Of a stretch of DNA of 64,000 nt, positions 2,925 to 12,001 are shown piece after piece. The stretch is from the NCBI RefSeq assembly GCF_014192715.1, contig NZ_JACHYH010000001.1, forward strand, positions 1,178,001 to 1,242,000, in the 5' to 3' direction. Within the stretch, counting starts at the first letter, position 1; every line of letters starts with the position of its first letter. This DNA comes from Luteibacter sp. Sphag1AF. GTDB lineage: Bacteria > Pseudomonadota > Gammaproteobacteria > Xanthomonadales > Rhodanobacteraceae. The notes beneath the pieces are model-generated. The model did not search any database, was not told where the DNA came from, and worked only from the letters and a program-made list of their open reading frames with translations. Both the position numbers and the translations under genes were made by a program.

Positions 2925-3776
2925 ATGGCGGCACTTGCCCGGCAAACGACGGACGCAATGGGTTCCCACGAAGCAGCACTGCTGGCCGAGTGGCGAGCCA
3001 ATCTTGAAGCAAGCGGTGCCGCCCGCGGCCTGAGCCCGGAAGAGCTTGCCCGGCAAACGGCCGAGTTTCTGGGCTTGGTCATTACCTGCGCAGTAAACGG
3101 CGATGCATCCAACATCTCCGGAGCCGATTGGGACAGCGCCAGACAGTTCCTCGAAAAACTGTCGCGCACGCGCGCCACGCAGGGTTTTGAATCCCACCAC
3201 ACGGCCAACTTCATCTTTTCGCTGAAGCGTCCGCTGTTCGCGCTGCTTCAGCGCACGTATGCCACGGACCCTGCCACGCTCGCCGATCAGATGTGGGCAA
3301 CCACCGAACTGCTCGACCAGCTCGGCATGCATACGACCCGTACCTTCCAGAAGTCGCGCGAAGAAGTCATCAAGCGTCAGCAGGAAGAACTGCTGGAGCT
3401 GTCGACGCCCGTGGTCAAGCTGTGGGACGGTGTGCTGGCATTGCCCATGATCGGCACCCTGGATTCGCAGCGCACGCAGGTGGTCATGGAGTCGCTGCTT
3501 CAGCGCATCGTGGATACCGGTTCGGAAATCGCCATCATCGACATCACGGGTGTACCCACGGTCGACACGCTGGTGGCACAGCATCTGCTGAAGACGGTCA
3601 CCGCCATCCGCCTGATGGGCGCCGACTGCATCATCAGCGGCGTGCGTCCGCAGATTGCGCAGACCATCGTGCATCTGGGTCTGGACCTGCAAGGCATCGT
3701 CACCAAGGCCAACCTCGCTGACGCACTGGCGCTCGCACTGCGCCGCTCGGGACTCACCGTCGTCAAGGCATCCTGA
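2925..3776 (+). CDS. rsbR: Stressosome sensor/co-antagonist RsbR (RsbRD-type N domain + STAS)
   Basis: A 283-residue stressosome scaffold subunit. Residues about 14-150 resemble the RsbRD_N sensor domain (for example FSLKRPLFALLQ) and not the globin-like domain of Bacillus RsbRA. Residues about 160-283 are the STAS domain. Two threonines matching the RsbT targets T171 and T205 of B. subtilis are present: T178 in MIGTLDS and T212 in GVPTVDT, with the same 34-residue spacing. ATG 2925 is chosen because GGGGA precedes it and the match begins there; an upstream in-frame ATG at 2853 adds 24 unrelated residues. It heads an operon with rsbS (4-base gap). What the N domain senses is unknown. Confidence 0.92.
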   Translation: MAALARQTTDAMGSHEAALLAEWRANLEASGAARGLSPEELARQTAEFLGLVITCAVNGDASNISGADWDSARQFLEKLSRTRATQGFESHHTANFIFSLKRPLFALLQRTYATDPATLADQMWATTELLDQLGMHTTRTFQKSREEVIKRQQEELLELSTPVVKLWDGVLALPMIGTLDSQRTQVVMESLLQRIVDTGSEIAIIDITGVPTVDTLVAQHLLKTVTAIRLMGADCIISGVRPQIAQTIVHLGLDLQGIVTKANLADALALALRRSGLTVVKAS

Positions 3777-3780
3777 CACC

Positions 3781-4143
3781 ATGGACCGTATCCCGATCCT
3801 CAGGATGGGTGAGTTCCTTCTGGTGACGATCCAGGTCGACATGCACGATCAGCTCGCGCTGACCTTGCAGGACGACCTCTCCGAACGCATCAGTGCCTGT
3901 TCCTCCAAGGGTGTGCTGATCGACATCTCGGCGCTGGACATGGTCGACTCGTTTATCGGTCGCATGATCGGCAACATCTCGGGCCTGTCGAAAATCATGG
4001 ATGCCGACACCGTGCTGGTGGGCATGCAGCCCGCAGTCGCCATCACGCTGGTGGAACTTGGCCTCACGTTGCCCGGCGTCATCACCGCCTTGAATGTGGA
4101 ACGCGGCATGACGTTGCTGCGCGCACGCCTGGACCACCAATGA
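3781..4143 (+). CDS. rsbS: Stressosome scaffold STAS protein RsbS
   Basis: A 120-residue single STAS-domain protein that co-assembles with RsbR and holds RsbT in the stressosome. The family-defining stretch VDSFIGRMIG is present, with S57 at the position of the RsbT-phosphorylated S59 of B. subtilis, followed by the conserved GMQPAVAITLVELG. ATG 3781 follows the rsbR stop by 4 bases; the frame is open further upstream but that part is antagonistic to the rsbR coding frame and unlike the family. The stop overlaps rsbT by 4 bases (ATGA), implying fixed stoichiometric synthesis. Confidence 0.95.
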   Translation: MDRIPILRMGEFLLVTIQVDMHDQLALTLQDDLSERISACSSKGVLIDISALDMVDSFIGRMIGNISGLSKIMDADTVLVGMQPAVAITLVELGLTLPGVITALNVERGMTLLRARLDHQ

Positions 4144-4544
4144 TCGTTCGCGACAGTGGCACCCAACCCGTTCGCATCGAGCAGGACGTGGTGCTGGCGC
4201 GCCACACCGTGCGCCGGCTTGCCGTGGAGTGCGGTCTTCGACTGATCGACCAGACCAAGATCGTCACTGCCGCCAGCGAGCTGGCGCGCAACACCGTCGT
4301 CTACGGCGGTGGTGGCGACATGGACTGGGAGATTCTTGAGGATGGCGCCCGCCACGGTCTGCGCCTTGTGTTCCGCGACGAAGGCCCGGGCATTGCAGAC
4401 ATGAAGCTGGCCATGACCGACGGCTGGACTTCGGGCAACGGCCTTGGCCTTGGTCTTACCGGTGCGAAACGCCTGGTGGGCGACTTCGACATCGACAGCC
4501 GGCCTGGCGTGGGGACGCGCATCACCATTGCGCGATGGACATGA
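4140..4544 (+). CDS. rsbT: Stressosome serine/threonine kinase RsbT
   Basis: A 134-residue GHKL kinase. The N box (ASELARNTVVYGGGG), G1 box (RDEGPGIAD) and G2 box (GNGLGLGLTGAKRL) are all intact, as in Bacillus RsbT. In known stressosomes RsbT phosphorylates RsbS and RsbR, leaves the complex and activates a downstream partner. In Bacillus that partner is the RsbU phosphatase; no RsbU or sigma-B gene is visible here. Its start and its stop each overlap the neighbouring gene by 4 bases, the tightest coupling in the operon. Confidence 0.94.
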   Translation: MIVRDSGTQPVRIEQDVVLARHTVRRLAVECGLRLIDQTKIVTAASELARNTVVYGGGGDMDWEILEDGARHGLRLVFRDEGPGIADMKLAMTDGWTSGNGLGLGLTGAKRLVGDFDIDSRPGVGTRITIARWT

Positions 4545-5551
4545 GAATTGCAGGCACGCCTGCGCACGTCGTAGCCGTTGAAGAGATCAGCCAGGTCGGT
4601 CAGGCGCGGCGCACTGCGCAGCAGTTGGCCGAAGGCGCAGGTTTTGATGAAACGGACGCCGGACGCGTTGCGCTGGTGGCAACCGAACTTGCCAGCAATC
4701 TGTTGAAGCATGGGCGGCACGGCGCCGTTTACCTGCGCTGCGTTCCCGGCCGCGATGCGGTGGGAGTCGAGATTCTCGCCGTGGATCGCGGTCCTGGCTT
4801 CGACCTCGCCCAGTGCCTGCCCGATGGCGTATCCAGTCGCGGCACGCAGGGCATCGGGCTTGGCTCGGTCATGCGTCAGGCACAGGTATTCGACCATTAC
4901 TCCGATGAACGCGGTTCGGTGCTGCTGGCGCGCTTGTATCCCCGTGTGCTCAAGGAGCAAGACCACCGCTTCGGCGCGGTACAGCAGTCGCTGCACGACG
5001 ATCCCGCCTGCGGCGACAGCTGGGCCCTCACCTGCAACGGCGACGCGCTTGCCTGCATGGTCGTGGATGGGCTGGGCCATGGACCTGATGCTCAGGTAGC
5101 CGCACACGCCGCCATCGCCGCGTTCCTCGCGAGCCCGTTTGGCGACCCTTCCGAAACGTTGGCCGATGCGCATAGTGCAATGACCGGCACGCGCGGCGGC
5201 GCCGTGGCCATTGCACGCCATGAGCGCCAGAATGGCCGACTGCGGTTCAGCGGCATCGGCAACATCTCTGCCACTCTGCTGGGGCCAGACAGCTCGCGGG
5301 GTCTCGCATCGCATCCGGGCATAGTTGGCGTACAGTTCAGACGAGCCCACACCTTCGACTTTCCCCAATCGGGAGGGCAACTGCTCGTCATGCACAGCGA
5401 CGGCCTGCAATCCCGCTGGCGGCTCACGGACTACCCCGGTCTGTGGCACAGGCATCCGGCGGTGATTTCCGCCGTGCTTCATCGGGATTTTAGCCGGGGT
5501 CGTGACGACGTCACCGTTCTGGTCATCGCACTGGAGGCCCCGCGTGGCTGA
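4541..5551 (+). CDS. GHKL ATPase fused to SpoIIE/RsbX-type phosphatase
   Basis: A 336-residue two-domain protein. Residues about 1-130 form an RsbT/RsbW-like ATPase with N box ELASNLLKHG, DRGPGF and GTQGIGLGS. Residues about 150-335 form a PP2C/SpoIIE phosphatase with CGDSW, MVVDGLGHGPDA, GIGNISATL, HSDGL and GRDDVTVLV, carrying the metal-binding Asp residues. By position and domain it corresponds to RsbX, which dephosphorylates RsbS and RsbR and resets the stressosome. Bacillus RsbX lacks the ATPase half. ATG 4541 is chosen for its ATGA overlap with rsbT; ATG 4535 is an alternative. Confidence 0.88.
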   Translation: MRIAGTPAHVVAVEEISQVGQARRTAQQLAEGAGFDETDAGRVALVATELASNLLKHGRHGAVYLRCVPGRDAVGVEILAVDRGPGFDLAQCLPDGVSSRGTQGIGLGSVMRQAQVFDHYSDERGSVLLARLYPRVLKEQDHRFGAVQQSLHDDPACGDSWALTCNGDALACMVVDGLGHGPDAQVAAHAAIAAFLASPFGDPSETLADAHSAMTGTRGGAVAIARHERQNGRLRFSGIGNISATLLGPDSSRGLASHPGIVGVQFRRAHTFDFPQSGGQLLVMHSDGLQSRWRLTDYPGLWHRHPAVISAVLHRDFSRGRDDVTVLVIALEAPRG

Positions 5552-6398
5552 TAACGACGCAACTGCCATCGACGCCCTCCGCCGCGAGAACGAAGCGCTT
5601 CGTTCCGAACTGGAAGAGACCAATCACGGGGTGGTCGCGCTGTACGCCGAACTGGACATGCAGGCCGAAGAGCTGCGCCAGGCGTCGGATCTGAAAAGCC
5701 GCTTCCTGTCGTACATGAGCCACGAATTCCGCACGCCGCTGGGCTCGATCCTGAGCATCACGCGACTGCTCAGCGATGAGCTGGATGGCCCGCTGAACGA
5801 CGAACAGCACAAGCAGATCCAGTTTGTCAGTGGCGCCGCCCGCGAGCTCAGCGACATGGTGGACGATCTGCTTGACCTGGCCAAGATCGAGGCAGGACGC
5901 ATCACCATTTCGCCTGCCTGGTTCGACATGCTGGATCTGTTCGCGGCGCTGCGCGGCATGTTCCGCCCCATCGGGGATGCCACGACGGCGGACCTCATCT
6001 TTGAAGATCCCGAGGGCATTCCGCGCCTCTTCACCGATGACAAGAAGCTGGCGCAGATTCTGCGCAATTACATTTCCAACGCGCTCAAGTTCACCCAGCA
6101 CGGCGAAATCCGCGTTTGCGCGCGCATGGAAAACGAGCACGAGGTCTGCTTCTCGGTCAGCGATACAGGGATCGGCATTCCGCCGGAATCCATGGACAGC
6201 CTGTTCGATGATTTCACGCAGGTGGATTCACCGTTGCAGAAGCGCTGGCGCGGCACGGGTCTGGGCCTTTCGCTCTGCCGCCGCTTCGCCGCCCTGCTGG
6301 GTGGAAAAGTGGGGGCCACCAGCGTGCCGGGCCAGGGTTCGGTTTTCTTCGTGATCGTCCCCGTGGCGCTACCGCAGGAGACCTCCGATGGCGCTTGA
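5544..6398 (+). CDS. Soluble sensor histidine kinase of the stressosome operon
   Basis: A 284-residue cytoplasmic kinase without membrane helices. An N-terminal coiled coil (about 8-50) leads into HisKA with H60 in SHEFRTPLGS, then HATPase with N box NYISNALKF, SDTGIGIP and RGTGLGLSL. There is no separate sensor domain, so input probably comes by protein contact, possibly released RsbT. GTG 5544 is chosen: GGAGG lies just upstream, it overlaps the phosphatase stop by 8 bases and the coiled coil starts there. The in-frame ATG at 5502 would lie deep inside the upstream gene. It overlaps the next gene by 11 bases. Confidence 0.88.
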   Translation: MADNDATAIDALRRENEALRSELEETNHGVVALYAELDMQAEELRQASDLKSRFLSYMSHEFRTPLGSILSITRLLSDELDGPLNDEQHKQIQFVSGAARELSDMVDDLLDLAKIEAGRITISPAWFDMLDLFAALRGMFRPIGDATTADLIFEDPEGIPRLFTDDKKLAQILRNYISNALKFTQHGEIRVCARMENEHEVCFSVSDTGIGIPPESMDSLFDDFTQVDSPLQKRWRGTGLGLSLCRRFAALLGGKVGATSVPGQGSVFFVIVPVALPQETSDGA

Positions 6399-8331
6399 CA
6401 TTCATCTGCTGATCGTTGACGACAACGCAGCCACGCGGTACGCGATGCGACGCGTGCTGGAACGCCATGGCTACCACGTCGAGGAAGCAGGCACAGGCAC
6501 CGATGGGCTGGTCCTTCTGGAACACTCACGCGTGGATGCGCTCGTGCTGGACGTAAACCTGCCCGACATGAGCGGCTTCGATATCGTGCGCAAGTTGCGC
6601 GCAGAGAATCGTACCGCCCTGCTTCCCGTGATCCATGTGTCCGCCGCCTCCATTGAAACCGGTGACCTCATCACCGGGCTGGATGCCGGCGCGGATGCTT
6701 ACCTGATTCATCCGGTCGATCCGGACGTGTTGCTGGCAACCCTGCGCACGCTGCTTCGCGTGCGTGACGCCGAACTGGCGCTACGCGAGAGCGAGGCGCG
6801 CTTCCGCGAAATCTTCGACAACGTTGCCGCCCCCGTGGCCGTGGTGAGTGCCACGCTTTGCGTGCACGAAAGCAATCAGGCTTTCGCACGCCTTCTTGAC
6901 GACAAGGGCACAGGGCCTGCACTGGCCGAACGCATCGTCGAAGGGCAAGACGCGACCCTCACCGAACTCGGCGAGCACCTTGCCCGCGGTGACCGCTGGC
7001 ATGGCACGATCCTGCTGAGCACCCGTCGTGGCGTGCGCGAAACCGAATGGCGTGTTGCGCCTTACCGCACGCTGGGCACCGGCATCATCTATGTGGATGA
7101 CATCACCGAGCAGCGCCAGCGCGAACGCGAGCAGATGGCCGAACTGGACACGACCACCACGCAGCTCGCACGCGAGGTCGAAGAACACGCACGTACGGAA
7201 GCACAATTGTTCCAGGCGCAAAAAATGGACGCGCTGGGCAAGCTCACTGGCGGCATCGCGCACGACTTCAATAATCTGCTCACCAGCATCATCACGGGGG
7301 TGGAGATCATGAATCAGCGCATATCGGAGGGGCGTCACGAAGGCGTGCAGCGCTTCGCCGATGCCGTGCTTGGCTCGGCACGCCGTGCCGCAGCGCTGAC
7401 ACATCGCCTGCTCGCCTTCGCCCGCCAGCAGCCGCTGGATGCCCGTCCGGTGGATGTGAGCCAGCACGTGCGTTCGCTGGGCGACATGCTCCGGCGAACC
7501 ATCGGTGAAACCATCCAGCTCGACATGGAGGCGCTGGTGGACGGCGCCTATGCGCGCGTGGACCCCAATCAGCTCGAAAATGCCGTCATCAATCTGGTCA
7601 TCAACGCGCGCGATGCTTTACCCAATGGTGGCCGCATCATCGTGGCGACCAGCCGGCTGGAAGTGCGCAACCATGCGGAACTCCTCGGCGGCGAGTACAT
7701 CTCGCTGTCGGTGCGCGACAACGGCACCGGCATTGAGCCGGACATTCTCGACAAAGTGTTCGATCCGTTCTTCACCACCAAACCGCTGGGTCGTGGCACG
7801 GGGCTTGGCCTCTCGATGATTTACGGATTTGCACGACAGTCTGGCGGTGAAGCACTGATTCGCAGCTGGCCGGGGCGCGGCACCGAGGTCACACTGATCC
7901 TTCCCGCCACGGAAGCACCGGACGTCGAAGAGCCCGTCGCAGCAATCAAAGTCACCCGGGGCACCGGGCAGCACATCCTGCTGGTGGAAGACACCACGAC
8001 CGTCCGCGTGCTCACCGCTGAGCTGCTGACTGACGCAGGCTATCGCTGCACGCACGTGGCCGACGTAGACGCCGCGCTTGTGTTGCTAAGAGGTGATACC
8101 GCCATCGACCTGCTACTGACCGATGTGGGCATGCCGGATATGGACGGCCGCGCGCTGGTGGATATCGCCCGAGCCTGGCGCCCGCGCCTGCCCGTGCTGT
8201 TCATGACCGGATACGCCGAGAACGCGCTGGATCGCGACGCGTTTCTCGGCGCAGGCATGGACATGGTCATCAAGCCGTATGCCATCGACGATTTGCTGGC
8301 GCGCGTACACACCATGCTGTTGCGCCGGTAG
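6388..8331 (+). CDS. Hybrid REC-PAS-histidine kinase-REC protein, end of the stressosome operon
   Basis: A 647-residue soluble protein. The order is REC1 (1-125, D55 in [12 protein letters not shown]), PAS (about 135-240), coiled coil, HisKA with H292 in [11 protein letters not shown], HATPase ([20 protein letters not shown]) and REC2 (about 530-645, DVGMPDMDG, Lys in IKPY). REC1 has His (LIHPVDP) where receivers carry the conserved Lys. CAGGAG at 6375-6380 supports ATG 6388. It is probably phosphorylated by the preceding kinase and passes phosphate to REC2 or an unlinked regulator. No DNA-binding or GGDEF output is present. It is the likely output of the stressosome. Confidence 0.9.
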
Positions 8332-8338
8332 CTGAAGT

Positions 8339-9520
8339 TCAGTCGAGCGCGGTGGCCGGACCATAAAAGCCGTAACGCGTGCGCTCCGCCGGTATGCCCA
8401 GCTCATCCATGCCGGCCTTCATCGCCTTCATGAAGGCGATGGGGCCCAGCACGTACACATCCACGTCGCGTGTCGCCGGCATCCACGCGGCGAGCAGCGC
8501 GCTGTCGACAAGACCGGTGGCATCCGGCGGGTTGTCCGGCTGGTCGTGTAATTCATAGCAGGTGTAATGCTTCAGATGGGCGTGCTCACTGGCCAGCATT
8601 TCCACGTCGATGCGGAAGGCGTGCGCACATGCGTGGCGCGCCGCGTGGATGAAATGCACGGGGCGTTGTTCTGCCAGTGCAGATTCCAGCATCGGCAACG
8701 TTGCGGTGATCCCGATTCCGCCGCTGATAAGCACCAGCGGCCGACCGCTGCTCTGAAGCACGAAGTCTCCCGACGGCGGGAATAGCTCGAGCGTATCGCC
8801 GAGGTTCACGCGATCATGCAGATAGCCGGAGACCACGCCACCGGGCTGCCGTTTCACACTGATGCGATACGTGGAACCATTGGTCAACGATGAGATGGCG
8901 TAGTTGCGCCGTGTCTCCACGCCGTCAATATCCACACGCAGACCGATGTGCTGCCCCGGCTCGTGCAGCATCACCGGGCCGTTGTCGTCCGGTGCGAAGG
9001 TCAGCGAGGTTACCTCGCTGCTTTCGCGGGTCTTGGCCACCACCACAAACTGACGGGCGCCACGCCAGCCGCCGGGCTTCTTCGCCACGCTGTCGTAGAT
9101 CTTCCGCTCCTCTTCCACCAGCAGGGCCGCCAGTTGTCCGTACGCGGCACCCCAGGCATCGAGCACGGCGTCGGTAGCCACCTCGTGCCCCAGCACCTCG
9201 CGAATGGAACGCAGCAAGGTGGCGCCAACTACCGGATACAACGAAGCCGGTACCTGCATGGCCACGTGTTTGCACACGATCACGCGAACCAGGTCCGCAA
9301 GCACGTCAAGCTGGTCGATGTGGCGCGCATACGCCAGCACGGCGCGCGCAAGGGCACGCTGCTGCGCGCCGCTGTGCTGGTGGGAGGGATTGAAGTACGC
9401 ACGCACCTGTGGATTCTCTGCCAGCAGCGTGCGGTAGAAGTGCCGGGCAAGCACCTCACTGCCCGTCTCCAGCAGTGGCACGGTGGCGCGGACGATGGCA
9501 CGATGTTCGGGAGATAGCAT
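8339..9520 (-). CDS. hmp: Flavohemoglobin, nitric oxide dioxygenase
   Basis: A 393-residue three-domain protein converting NO and O2 to nitrate with NAD(P)H. The globin domain (1-140) has Y29, Q53, proximal H85 and Y95 at exactly the E. coli Hmp positions. An FAD domain follows (about 150-260, RNYAISS) and then an NAD domain (LISGGIGIT). The C-terminal end reads YGFYGPA in place of the usual FxxFGP. ATG 9520 is chosen over an in-frame start at 9595 because GAAGGAT lies 7 bases upstream and the globin begins there. It is convergent with the stressosome operon, 7 bases apart. No NsrR site is evident. Confidence 0.96.
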   Translation of the reverse strand: MLSPEHRAIVRATVPLLETGSEVLARHFYRTLLAENPQVRAYFNPSHQHSGAQQRALARAVLAYARHIDQLDVLADLVRVIVCKHVAMQVPASLYPVVGATLLRSIREVLGHEVATDAVLDAWGAAYGQLAALLVEEERKIYDSVAKKPGGWRGARQFVVVAKTRESSEVTSLTFAPDDNGPVMLHEPGQHIGLRVDIDGVETRRNYAISSLTNGSTYRISVKRQPGGVVSGYLHDRVNLGDTLELFPPSGDFVLQSSGRPLVLISGGIGITATLPMLESALAEQRPVHFIHAARHACAHAFRIDVEMLASEHAHLKHYTCYELHDQPDNPPDATGLVDSALLAAWMPATRDVDVYVLGPIAFMKAMKAGMDELGIPAERTRYGFYGPATALD

Positions 9521-9670
9521 GGTTGATCCTTCGATGGTGTCCGCAGACAACATCAACGACCGTGCCAGCAAGGATGACACGGTCGGAACAACCACTTAGA
9601 CCGTTCGACGTCGTTTTGACTGCCACTGCGCGACGTCTGATCGACCCACGCTCCAGTCAATATGACCGAA

Positions 9671-9708: not shown

Positions 9709-11103
9709 TCAGCGACCGATATTGCGCAGGCGTTCGCCGTGCATCAGCTTTCGCTCGATCTGCTCCAGCGTCACGCCCTTGGTTTCCGGCACCAGCCAGA
9801 ACGTGATGAGGATGAACAGCGCATTGAGCGCGCCATAAAGCCAGAACGTCTGCGCATTGCCGATACCGCTCAGCAGCGACAGGAACGTGGCGCCCACAAT
9901 GGCGTTGGCCGCCCAGTTGGTAAAGGTGGAACAGGCGATGCCGAAATCGCGTCCCTTCAGCGGTTGCACTTCCGAACACAGCGTCCAGATCAACGGGCCC
10001 GCCGACATCGCGAAACCAACAATGAAAACCAGCAGCATCGCGACGGTGAAAATCTGCTCGCCGTGCGACTGGATGCCCAGATGCATCATCGTGCCCACCA
10101 CGCCCAGCCCCGTGGCCATGATGGCGAAGCCCGCATACAGAATGGGCTTTCGACCCAGACGATCAACGAACGCGAACGCGATCAGCGTGGCGAGCACATT
10201 GGTCAGACCCACCGCAGCGGTAAACCACATCTGCGCATGCGTGTCGTATCCCATGTCCTTGAAAATGCGCGGAGCGTAGTACATCACCACATTCATGCCG
10301 GTGAACTGCTGGACAACCTGCAACAACACGCCCAGTCCCACGGAGCGACGGAAGTTGCTGTTTCCGAGGAACAGGCTCAGGCCATGCTGACGCGTCTTCA
10401 ACTGCTCTTCGATGTCGGATATTTCACGGGCGATCACGGTGTCGTCGCCGCGCAGCTTCTTCAGAACCACCTGGGCTTCATCCTTTCTTCCCCTCATCAG
10501 CAGCCAGCGCGGGCTATCGGGAAGGAAGAACAGACCCACGAGAAACAGCACACCCGGCACCGCGATCACGCCGAGCATCCAGCGCCAGTTGCCTGACGAA
10601 CTGAAGGCGGTATCGGAAAGGAATGCCACCAGAATGCCCGTGGTGATCATCAACTGATAGACGGAAATCATCGCGCCGCGAATGTGCTCTGGCGCAACCT
10701 CCGCCAGATACAGGGGCGCCGTGAACGTCGCCACGCCGATGGCCAGACCCAGCACGAAGCGTGCAACGATCAGACTTTCCGGTGACCAGGCGGCTGCACA
10801 GAACAGCGAGCCCGCCACGAACAGCACGCCGGCAAGCAAAAGCGAACGCTTCCGTCCCAGGACGGCAGACATCCAGCCTGCCCCGACCGCACCCACCGCT
10901 GCACCGCCCATCATGCTGCTGACGATGGCCTCGATCATGTGATCAGAGACTTTGAATTCCGCCTGGATGAACTGGGTGGCGCCGGAGATCACGCCGATGT
11001 CGAGGCCGAACATCAGGCCAGCGAGGGCAGCCAGTACACAGGTGGTGAACACCGCTCCGCGTACCTCAGGCGGAACGGTGGCAGCTTTGACTTGAGCATC
11101 CAT
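9709..11103 (-). CDS. Sugar porter family MFS symporter (xylose/arabinose/galactose type)
   Basis: A 464-residue inner-membrane sugar:H+ symporter with 12 predicted helices. Family signatures are GLDIGVISGA in helix 1, RFVLGLAIGV, PLYLAEVAPEHIRGAM, PDSPRWLLMRGR, QQFTGMN in helix 7, DRLGRKP and the C-terminal VPETKG. This is the AraE/GalP/XylE group; the exact pentose or hexose cannot be read from sequence. GGGGA lies 8 bases before the ATG. It is codirectional with the upstream SDR gene, 133 bases apart. The SDR resembles xylose dehydrogenase, so a pentose is the likely substrate. Confidence 0.92.
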   Translation of the reverse strand: MDAQVKAATVPPEVRGAVFTTCVLAALAGLMFGLDIGVISGATQFIQAEFKVSDHMIEAIVSSMMGGAAVGAVGAGWMSAVLGRKRSLLLAGVLFVAGSLFCAAAWSPESLIVARFVLGLAIGVATFTAPLYLAEVAPEHIRGAMISVYQLMITTGILVAFLSDTAFSSSGNWRWMLGVIAVPGVLFLVGLFFLPDSPRWLLMRGRKDEAQVVLKKLRGDDTVIAREISDIEEQLKTRQHGLSLFLGNSNFRRSVGLGVLLQVVQQFTGMNVVMYYAPRIFKDMGYDTHAQMWFTAAVGLTNVLATLIAFAFVDRLGRKPILYAGFAIMATGLGVVGTMMHLGIQSHGEQIFTVAMLLVFIVGFAMSAGPLIWTLCSEVQPLKGRDFGIACSTFTNWAANAIVGATFLSLLSGIGNAQTFWLYGALNALFILITFWLVPETKGVTLEQIERKLMHGERLRNIGR

Positions 11104-11236
11104 GGGTGATTCCCCAGCGTGAGAAGGGGAAAATTGAATGCCGTGGCATGTGTTCTTGCTGTCATCAGCAAGTGCGCATGGCGTTAGTCCTCATCTGCGA
11201 TTCATGCCGCACGGGTATTGCGAGCCAGGGATCGGG

Positions 11237-12001
11237 CTATGCCCAGCCACCATCCACGATGAAGTTCTGGCCGGTGCACATGCGGCTGTCATCAGCGGCG
11301 AGGAAGAGGGCGGCACGTGCCAGGTCTTCCGGGAGAAGATGTCCGGGCATGCACTGCACTCGCCTGATCTCTGCTTCGCCTTCCTCGTCCAGCCAAAGGC
11401 GCTGCTGCTTCTCGGTGATGACCCAGCCGGGAACGAGGCAGTTGATACGGATGCGCTGCTGACCCAGTTCGCGGGCCATGCCGTTGACGAATCCGCTGAT
11501 GGCGGCCTTGGCCATCGCGTACATCGGGTAGCCCGCGTTCTTGCGCATCCATCCTGTGGAACCAAGACATATGACGGAGCCACCACCCAACGACTGCATG
11601 TCGGCGAGCACTGCCTGCGTCGCAAAATATTGATGACGAAGATTCGTGGCCACGCTTTGATCAAACGCGGCTGGCGTCGTGTCGGCGAACTGATGGCGCA
11701 CGTCGTTGGCGGCGTTGTTGATCAGCACTCCGATGGGGCCGAACGCCGAACGCACCTCGGTCACGGCCCGGTCCAGCGCGGCGGGGTCGGACAAATCGCA
11801 TGGCACGAAGCGCGGTGGATGCATGGCGTCGGCCAGCGTTGCTGCCAGTCGCTCGCCGCCTGGCTGATCCAGATCGAGAAACCCTACTTTAGCGCCCTGG
11901 CGCGCGAAATGCTCGACGAACGAAGCGCCGATGCCACTGGCGCCTCCGGTAATCAGAACGACTTTGTCGATGAGACTGGGATAGGTCGCGAACGCGCTCA
12001 T
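11237..12001 (-). CDS. SDR oxidoreductase resembling NAD-dependent D-xylose 1-dehydrogenase
   Basis: A 254-residue short-chain dehydrogenase with cofactor motif TGGASGIGA, NNAAND, catalytic Ser in CLGSTGW and Tyr/Lys in YAMAK. The N terminus (YPSL then VVLITGG), FARQGAKVGFLDLD, the NLRHQYFATQAV stretch and the CTGQNFIVDGGW end closely match my recollection of Caulobacter XylB, the first enzyme of oxidative (Weimberg-type) pentose catabolism. ATG 12001 is chosen because the family match starts there; an in-frame ATG at 12121 adds 40 unrelated residues. The porter downstream could supply its substrate. Other aldose dehydrogenase activities remain possible. Confidence 0.82.
   Translation of the reverse strand: MSAFATYPSLIDKVVLITGGASGIGASFVEHFARQGAKVGFLDLDQPGGERLAATLADAMHPPRFVPCDLSDPAALDRAVTEVRSAFGPIGVLINNAANDVRHQFADTTPAAFDQSVATNLRHQYFATQAVLADMQSLGGGSVICLGSTGWMRKNAGYPMYAMAKAAISGFVNGMARELGQQRIRINCLVPGWVITEKQQRLWLDEEGEAEIRRVQCMPGHLLPEDLARAALFLAADDSRMCTGQNFIVDGGWA

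Follow-up and report, generated by a model that had tools for sequence, protein, structure and literature searches.

The closest described relatives of the system treated here are stressosomes. The Bacillus and Listeria version belongs to an RsbRST-RsbU-RsbV-RsbW-SigB system, and in B. subtilis a flexible RsbU linker becomes ordered as a short coiled coil when RsbT binds RsbU (PMC12143880). The same work extends the linker model to kinases with an RsbU_N domain and notes polar residues at core positions of the linker. Stressosomes with kinase outputs are also known already: phosphorelays of HisKA and REC proteins are among eleven downstream architectures (Heinz et al. 2022, PMC9237108), and in Vibrio vulnificus strains lacking RSTX and strains lacking the downstream kinase have similar phenotypes (PMC10014275). 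How RsbT controls a kinase without RsbU_N is an open question in Gram-negative stressosomes (PMC9237108). Here we analyzed a stretch of 64,000 nucleotides from Luteibacter sp. Sphag1AF (the window), in which six same-strand genes at 2925-8331, rsbR-rsbS-rsbT-(HATPase+PP2C)-histidine kinase-(REC-PAS-kinase-REC), follow one another almost without gaps.

Our main finding is a helix at the N terminus of the first of the two kinases (5607..5657, forward strand; kinase residues 22-38; ELEETNHGVVALYAELD), which is new, is almost as conserved as the H-box of the kinase and is a candidate coupling helix between stressosome and output. Among the titles and abstract openings listed, there was no account of this helix or of a kinase-fused RsbT-like domain, although Fig. 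3 of Heinz et al. may show HATPase-HisKA fusions. An earlier note on this DNA had asked the right question, namely, how RsbT acts on a histidine kinase, but made no mention of the conserved helix, which suggests an answer. Taken as a whole, what that note observed is partly confirmed and its interpretation partly supported.

Gene content and comparison with known stressosomes

The rsbR, rsbS and rsbT genes lie next to each other on the forward strand, like the rest of the cassette. RsbR (2925..3776), identified also by alignment to Listeria RsbR, combines an RsbRD_N sensor domain (PF14361; E 3.3e-20), which occurs once in the window genome, with a STAS domain (PF01740). RsbS (3781..4143) is a single STAS domain; coordinates of 3782-4140 were rejected for rsbS as out of frame, the start being 3781. 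RsbT (4140..4544) is a free HATPase switch kinase with intact N-box and G1/G2 motifs, and apart from itself rsbT matched, in the window genome, the HATPase encoded by the gene that follows and, weakly, one site on another contig. That next gene, X (4535..5551), encodes an HATPase_c_2 domain fused to a SpoIIE/PP2C domain by Pfam (SpoIIE E 2.9e-8) and is likely an RsbX-like feedback phosphatase judging from its sequence. The output histidine kinase (5544..6398; HisKA and HATPase, phosphoacceptor H60) and the second kinase (6388..8331) complete the cassette. The order and place of the six genes were thus given correctly before, and so was their tight packing, with intergenic gaps of +4, -4, -10, -8 and -11 nucleotides. 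The catalytic motifs expected of these families are in place (N-box/G1/G2 in RsbT, H60 in the first kinase, H292 in the hybrid, D55 and D579 in the receivers, D178 and GRDD in the PP2C domain).

In Listeria, the phosphosites of RsbR are T175 and T209 (PMC7705745). A gap-free alignment places them at S181 and T215 of the window RsbR, positions that hold Ser or Thr in 132/132 RsbR rows each. The earlier note had named T178 and T212, which are the wrong positions (Thr in 119/132 and 113/132 rows, respectively), whereas its assignment of S57 in RsbS is correct. Phosphorylatable residues therefore stand at all three positions matching Listeria T175, T209 and S56. The D92 position of RsbT was placed on the aligned rows by means of the B. 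subtilis sequence. This residue, named as the one contacting RsbU (PMC12143880), was tried as a specificity mark and rejected; it has no discriminating power because RsbT and X keep it alike.

No RsbU, RsbV, RsbW and SigB operon was found in the window genome, RsbV and RsbW being covered by no separate search. The SigBFG family gave seven matches there, none over the cut-off (best, 140.5 bits versus 234.35), and RsbU_N gave none, while the B. subtilis control was positive; the output protein likewise carries no RsbU_N domain. Among the six proteins, no GGDEF, EAL or DNA-binding family appeared in Pfam at an E value of ≤0.1, in agreement with the earlier note. The gene content thus supports a putative stressosome with a kinase output rather than sigma-B.

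Compared with the Bacillus and Listeria system, the window shares RsbR, RsbS, RsbT, the phosphosite positions, the HATPase motifs and a PP2C reset enzyme, but it has no RsbU_N and no SigB over cut-off, uses two kinases as output, bears Ser at the first RsbR site and has an additional HATPase domain in X. RsbS of the window scores 111 bits against RsbS chains of the Listeria type and only 38 bits against the V. vulnificus RsbS chain 7o0i_a. With the Vibrio type (VvD1 and VvD2 of V. vulnificus; PMC9237108, PMC10014275) the window shares an RSTX module followed by kinase and receiver genes and the lack of SigB, whereas its RsbR has a match to RsbRD_N and none to a sensor globin at the N terminus.

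Conservation of the kinase N-terminal helix

AlphaFold2 predicted the N-terminal part of the first kinase as one helix, residues 2-77, which runs into the phosphoacceptor helix (mean predicted local distance difference test score, 77; predicted template modeling score, 0.57; the other four models, 64-69). The predicted structure confirms that this kinase is sensorless, as previously claimed. Within this helix lie the 17 residues of the motif E-L-x-x-T-N-x-G-V-x-A-L-Y-x-E-L. In 95 kinases of the window type (90 distinct), the mean frequency of the major residue was 0.961 over the helix, with at least 0.95 in 13 of the 17 columns; the corresponding values were 0.976 (H-box), 0.856 (remaining DHp domain), 0.831 (CA domain) and 0.545 (tail preceding the helix). 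Helices before ten other kinases from genomes of the window's order scored at most 3.6 bits, versus 72.5 for the window helix.

Nine of the 14 rows measured show a distance of 23 residues from ALYxEL to the phosphoacceptor His; these are all nine HisKA outputs that match the search string and have no CckA-like core. The distance was 64, 64 and 50 residues in L132, L135 and L172, respectively, whose HisKA kinases have a DHp domain that appears CckA-like by eye, and the difference of 14 equals two heptads; the remaining two rows (L129 and L177) did not match the string. With L23 assigned by us to heptad position a, the core consists of L23, T26, V30, L33, L37 and Q40, of which T26 and Q40 are polar, and E22, N27, G29, A32 and E36, all outside the a/d core, are invariant in the 19 rows of the helix profile A4. 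Such a polar core with invariant residues outside it fits a tunable helix that may have a partner-binding face.

In a metagenome-assembled genome (L049), a stop codon lies inside the kinase helix region, possibly through an assembly error. On an Embleya plasmid (L176, 8411-10651), an 18-residue helix unit, about five helical turns, is repeated in tandem, and Nonomuraea (L177) has a shortened helix that the profile missed.

Association of the helix with stressosome loci

We searched 398 genomes of the window's phylum with the first helix profile, A1 (40 positions, built from 10 rows); genome counts refer to this phylum, and other phyla are represented by plasmid records. Eighteen genomes matched, once each, 17 of them at an E value of ≤8.1e-8 with the window included. 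Of the loci fetched from the 17 genomes other than the window's, 16 carry rsbR-S-T-X directly upstream, which with the window makes 17/18; the 18th and weakest match (E 3.5e-4) has no such genes upstream. At least two of the 17 genomes had fed rows to A1, the window's and G442, whose locus L120 equals L024 exactly. A4, 10 of whose 19 rows come from these 17 genomes, found 17 genomes at an E value of ≤1.8e-15 and three more at 0.006-0.008.

An RsbS profile detected 31 of the same 398 genomes. The 17 at an E value of ≤1.3e-57 are the same 17 as those with the helix, and the 14 weaker ones (2.8e-33 to 1.1e-13) have no helix. Since the RsbS profile was built solely from helix loci, with 11 rows taken from these 17 genomes, the gap between strong and weak RsbS arises partly by construction; six genomes that gave no RsbS row (G022, G203, G382, G430, G442 and G487) still scored ≤1.1e-58. 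In 151 genomes of the window's order, where the window supplied the only A4 row and 2 of the 8 positive genomes are also among the 398, strong RsbS and the helix occur in exactly the same 8 genomes, and a ninth has weak RsbS and no helix. These results show an association rather than contact, as the loci are related and the counts ignore kinship.

RsbT-like fusions and exchanged outputs

We gathered 133 loci: the window, 80 relatives of the first kinase, 20 helix-profile loci and 32 plasmid or weak-RsbS loci, with two duplicate pairs (L024/L120 and L181/L183) and one stray match (L136). RsbS was present in 132 of the 133, and the helix in 113 of these 132. In ten loci (L128, L130-L135, L172, L174 and L175), an RsbT-like domain, termed T' (88-123 bits), precedes the helix in the same open frame, and a free RsbT stands beside it in all ten; seven others (L129, L176, L179, L197, L199, L201 and L202) contain a decayed T' of 12-36 bits. 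T' was found neither in the window nor in 14 other window-type loci compared nor in L178, the search having covered loci other than the 80 first-kinase relatives, and no T' fusion was found in viral contigs. Thus, T' decays or, as in the window, is missing while the helix stays, although there are a few outputs with T' but without the helix. In a tree of 63 HATPase domains, 18 T' domains fell on one branch (100/98), 20 X HATPases on another (99/99), and RsbT formed the remainder, some decayed T' being long branches. Intact T' copies that were aligned retain the N-box, G1 and G2.

The enzyme behind the helix is exchanged as well. By Pfam, it is a HisKA kinase or a SpoIIE phosphatase with or without GAF (L178 and L179); in distant operons of Deinococcus, Sphingomonas and others the helix follows a T' fused to a kinase, and in Streptomyces it precedes a PP2C (SpoIIE) phosphatase. 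Helix and RsbU_N never occurred together in one protein among those scanned by Pfam. On the Deinococcus radiodurans plasmid MP1 (L175, 7123-12927), a complete RST-X operon includes a T'-helix-HisKA-HATPase-REC kinase (T'-helix-HisKA protein at 9966-11699) and, after it, a receiver-first kinase; the one publication listed for it was a review that, judging by its title, deals with something else.

Unlike the window, none of the 14 loci with weak RsbS has the helix, and some of them encode hybrid kinases. Their outputs include a kinase and a GGDEF protein each with RsbU_N (L184), a kinase with RsbU_N (L188), a T'-HisKA_2 protein without helix (L183, the duplicate of L181 from Phaeobacter), PAS-GGDEF-EAL proteins (L187, L190 and L191), a GGDEF protein (L195), hybrid kinases (L189, L194 and L196) and a plain HisKA kinase (L186). 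In the single open reading frame scanned in L185 no output was identified, and the contigs of L192 and L193 end too soon. In L189-L191 and L193, we saw only one strong RsbT-like domain, located in an open reading frame of ~350 amino acids after rsbS, and no separate rsbT; this frame is HATPase+SpoIIE by Pfam in L189 and alike by size in the other three.

Proposed mechanism and alternatives

The six genes may form one stressosome unit with a histidine kinase as output. By homology to Bacillus and Listeria, a STAS scaffold of RsbR and RsbS would hold RsbT; upon stress sensed at RsbR, RsbT would phosphorylate RsbR (S181 and T215) and RsbS (S57) and depart, and X would reset the complex by dephosphorylating both. 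We infer that in the living cell freed RsbT, or T' in the fusions, binds the kinase helix and orders it, given the polar core and the invariant outer residues, and so sets kinase activity, much as it orders the RsbU linker in B. subtilis. In the AlphaFold2 model, this helix is continuous with the phosphoacceptor helix. The helix would then be an exchangeable module that can have T' fused before it and is followed by a PP2C phosphatase, a HisKA kinase or a kinase whose core is CckA-like. Outputs with RsbU_N, including histidine kinases and GGDEF proteins (PMC12143880, PMC9237108), are similar in that an RsbT-controlled enzyme lies behind a dimeric helical linker, as predicted here, whereas the window kinase has no RsbU_N domain. 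We consider a stressosome unit in which RsbT acts on the kinase helix in place of RsbU_N to be the best explanation as a whole, and its chance of being right to be about even.

Several observations count against it. Helix, RsbS type and operon could be co-inherited without contact, and D92 does not set RsbT apart from X. In Vibrio, an interaction of RsbT with VvD1 went undetected, though VvD1 is another class of kinase (PMC9237108). RsbS type and helix are also not one-to-one in plasmid records: L173 (181 bits), L177 (169) and L200 (153) have high-scoring RsbS without a helix match, of which L177 retains the shortened helix piece and L200 shows no output gene. Besides, T' and a kinase occur without the helix in Paraburkholderia D15 (L173), Salipiger (L180) and Phaeobacter (L181), and therefore neither the helix nor T' is indispensable; several kinds of coupling exist, of which the helix is one, and T' does not require it. 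Furthermore, the same heptad facts fit an unusual S-helix that merely dimerizes.

This last possibility, a dimerizing signaling helix peculiar to this lineage of output proteins while RsbT controls the kinase otherwise, e.g., by Ser/Thr phosphorylation, seems to us rather unlikely but deserves weight. The S-helix (Anantharaman et al. 2006, PMC1592074) is likewise a coiled coil of ~40 residues before catalytic domains, and S-helices with a polar core d residue are known; the window helix shows an a/d pattern, in our heptad assignment, and is continuous with the catalytic dimer helix in the AlphaFold2 model (residues 2-77). Phosphorylation of sensor kinases has moreover been proposed for outputs without RsbU_N (PMC9237108). 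However, the ERT signature of the S-helix (heptad c, d, e) is absent, T-N standing at d and e in all 19 A4 rows under the same assignment; the helix has its own motif, is confined to stressosome loci in the sampled genomes and also precedes PP2C domains, and helices of ten other kinases do not score. The invariant E, N, G, A and E outside the a/d core in these rows speak for more than dimerization, although some of these positions are e or g, which a plain dimer could also conserve.

Alternatively, X might be the true target of RsbT, with the kinases merely cotranscribed and sensing through the weak PAS or another protein. X indeed follows rsbT in 80 relatives and in 16 fetched helix-profile operons, and its HATPase is related to that of RsbT; nevertheless, in the T' fusions the output enzyme itself bears an RsbT-like domain, the first kinase is sensorless, and the V. 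vulnificus phenotypes of RSTX and kinase loss resemble each other (PMC10014275), all of which makes this account improbable. Still more doubtful is that fused T' binds the STAS scaffold and thereby brings the kinase, while the window-type helix docks on the scaffold or X and free RsbT has no role: T' is RsbT-like and its intact aligned copies keep N-box, G1 and G2, but free RsbT accompanies T' in every locus with intact T' and helix.

Returning to RsbT acting on the helix, we suggest, tentatively and with somewhat less than even confidence, that this helix is a second general route from stressosome to output, alternative to RsbU_N, i.e., a transferable RsbT-responsive coiled-coil switch in Pseudomonadota, Deinococcota and Actinomycetota, driven by T' in some lineages and by free RsbT in trans in the line of the window, Pseudomonas, Dyella and Xanthomonas. 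A near-invariant, swappable helix of 17 residues at a fixed distance from the His makes the RsbT-kinase question reducible to point mutations, the natural RsbT-like fusions are ready single-chain constructs, and the helix is a sequence tag for stressosome outputs, including the PP2C outputs of Streptomyces and the Deinococcus kinases.

The second kinase

The second kinase has a REC1-(weak PAS)-HisKA-HATPase-REC2 arrangement and is CckA-like. Pfam found two Response_reg domains, HisKA and HATPase, as the earlier description had it, but the PAS domain of that description scored below threshold only. A conserved lysine in strand beta-5 is characteristic of canonical receiver domains. REC1 (6409..6744) has the phosphoacceptor D55 but H108 (6709-6711) in place of this lysine. 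Among 105 REC1-type receivers (at least 110 bits) in the gathered loci, the phosphoacceptor Asp is present in 105/105 and the lysine in 0/105, the position holding His in 100 and R, E, A, Q or D in one each. The C-terminal REC2 has retained the lysine in 78/81 loci; in L038, L098 and L101 it was not properly matched. The second kinase thus begins with a receiver that is atypical in sequence. As it lacks the conserved lysine, its acceptance of phosphate is in question, and we therefore treat the two-kinase phosphorelay of the earlier note as a hypothesis, whereas its exclusion of sigma-B agrees with the search results above. The second kinase might read the first via this atypical receiver and hand the signal to a partner encoded elsewhere.

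The NCBIfam models LvrA and LvrB match the first and second kinases, respectively, below their cut-offs. Leptospira LvrA/LvrB (PMC13269768) resembles the window pair in having a receiver-controlled kinase that works through a coiled-coil helix, but LvrB is Rec-DHp-CA with one receiver, and the cited passages describe no stressosome genes.

Occurrence and surroundings of the cassette

Relatives were sought with the first kinase, and the best 80 of 89 were retained for comparison. They are mostly from Pseudomonas and Stutzerimonas, and also from Luteibacter, Dyella, Variovorax and a bin labeled Paucimonas. The gene order, kinases included, is kept in 80/80; all six genes occur in 79/80, and each gene reaches at least 80% coverage in 75/80. 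The five below the full set are L038 and L066 (rsbR cut or absent where the contig starts), L076 and L098, in which X and the hybrid, respectively, are matched over a short stretch, and L101 from Variovorax, whose last kinase is only 30% identical. The cassette is also plasmid borne, e.g., on the 29-kb pXVH29 of Xanthomonas vasicola. It is present in 8/151 genomes of the window's own order, 4/7 from its genus, and its occurrence there is therefore patchy. The cassette is common and widespread in Pseudomonas and Stutzerimonas; together with the architectures already described (PMC9237108), this leaves the supposed unusual character of the operon unsupported.

Rough clustering of neighbors in 81 loci, in which long antisense open reading frames disturbed gene calling, gave no conserved seventh gene: the top neighbors outside the cassette and antisense frames each occurred in 10/81, the most shared including one that appears UvrA-like and one that appears LysR-like by eye. 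As no neighbor exceeds this number, there is no fixed seventh gene to supply a final output. Two loci are peculiar in their rsbR region. In Stutzerimonas chloritidismutans AW-1 (L029, 4870-6211), ~1.3 kb separates rsbR from rsbS, unlike in the relatives, possibly by insertion, and the rsbR piece of L038 (3-440) is 97% identical to that of the window over 146 amino acids, compared with 53-83% for the other genes, where recent exchange and a chimeric contig are possible alternatives.

A promoter scan found two sites, both on the opposite strand, with 1.1 expected, and the promoter and terminator scan did no better than on shuffled sequences. The cassette is preceded on its 5' side by an OmpR-type regulator/kinase pair and a DUF2058 gene. 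Beyond its 3' end, on the opposite strand and tail-to-tail with the operon, lies a flavohemoglobin gene (8342-9595; NO-inducible flavohemoprotein by NCBIfam), and RsbR of this operon carries RsbRD_N, not the heme globin of Vibrio.

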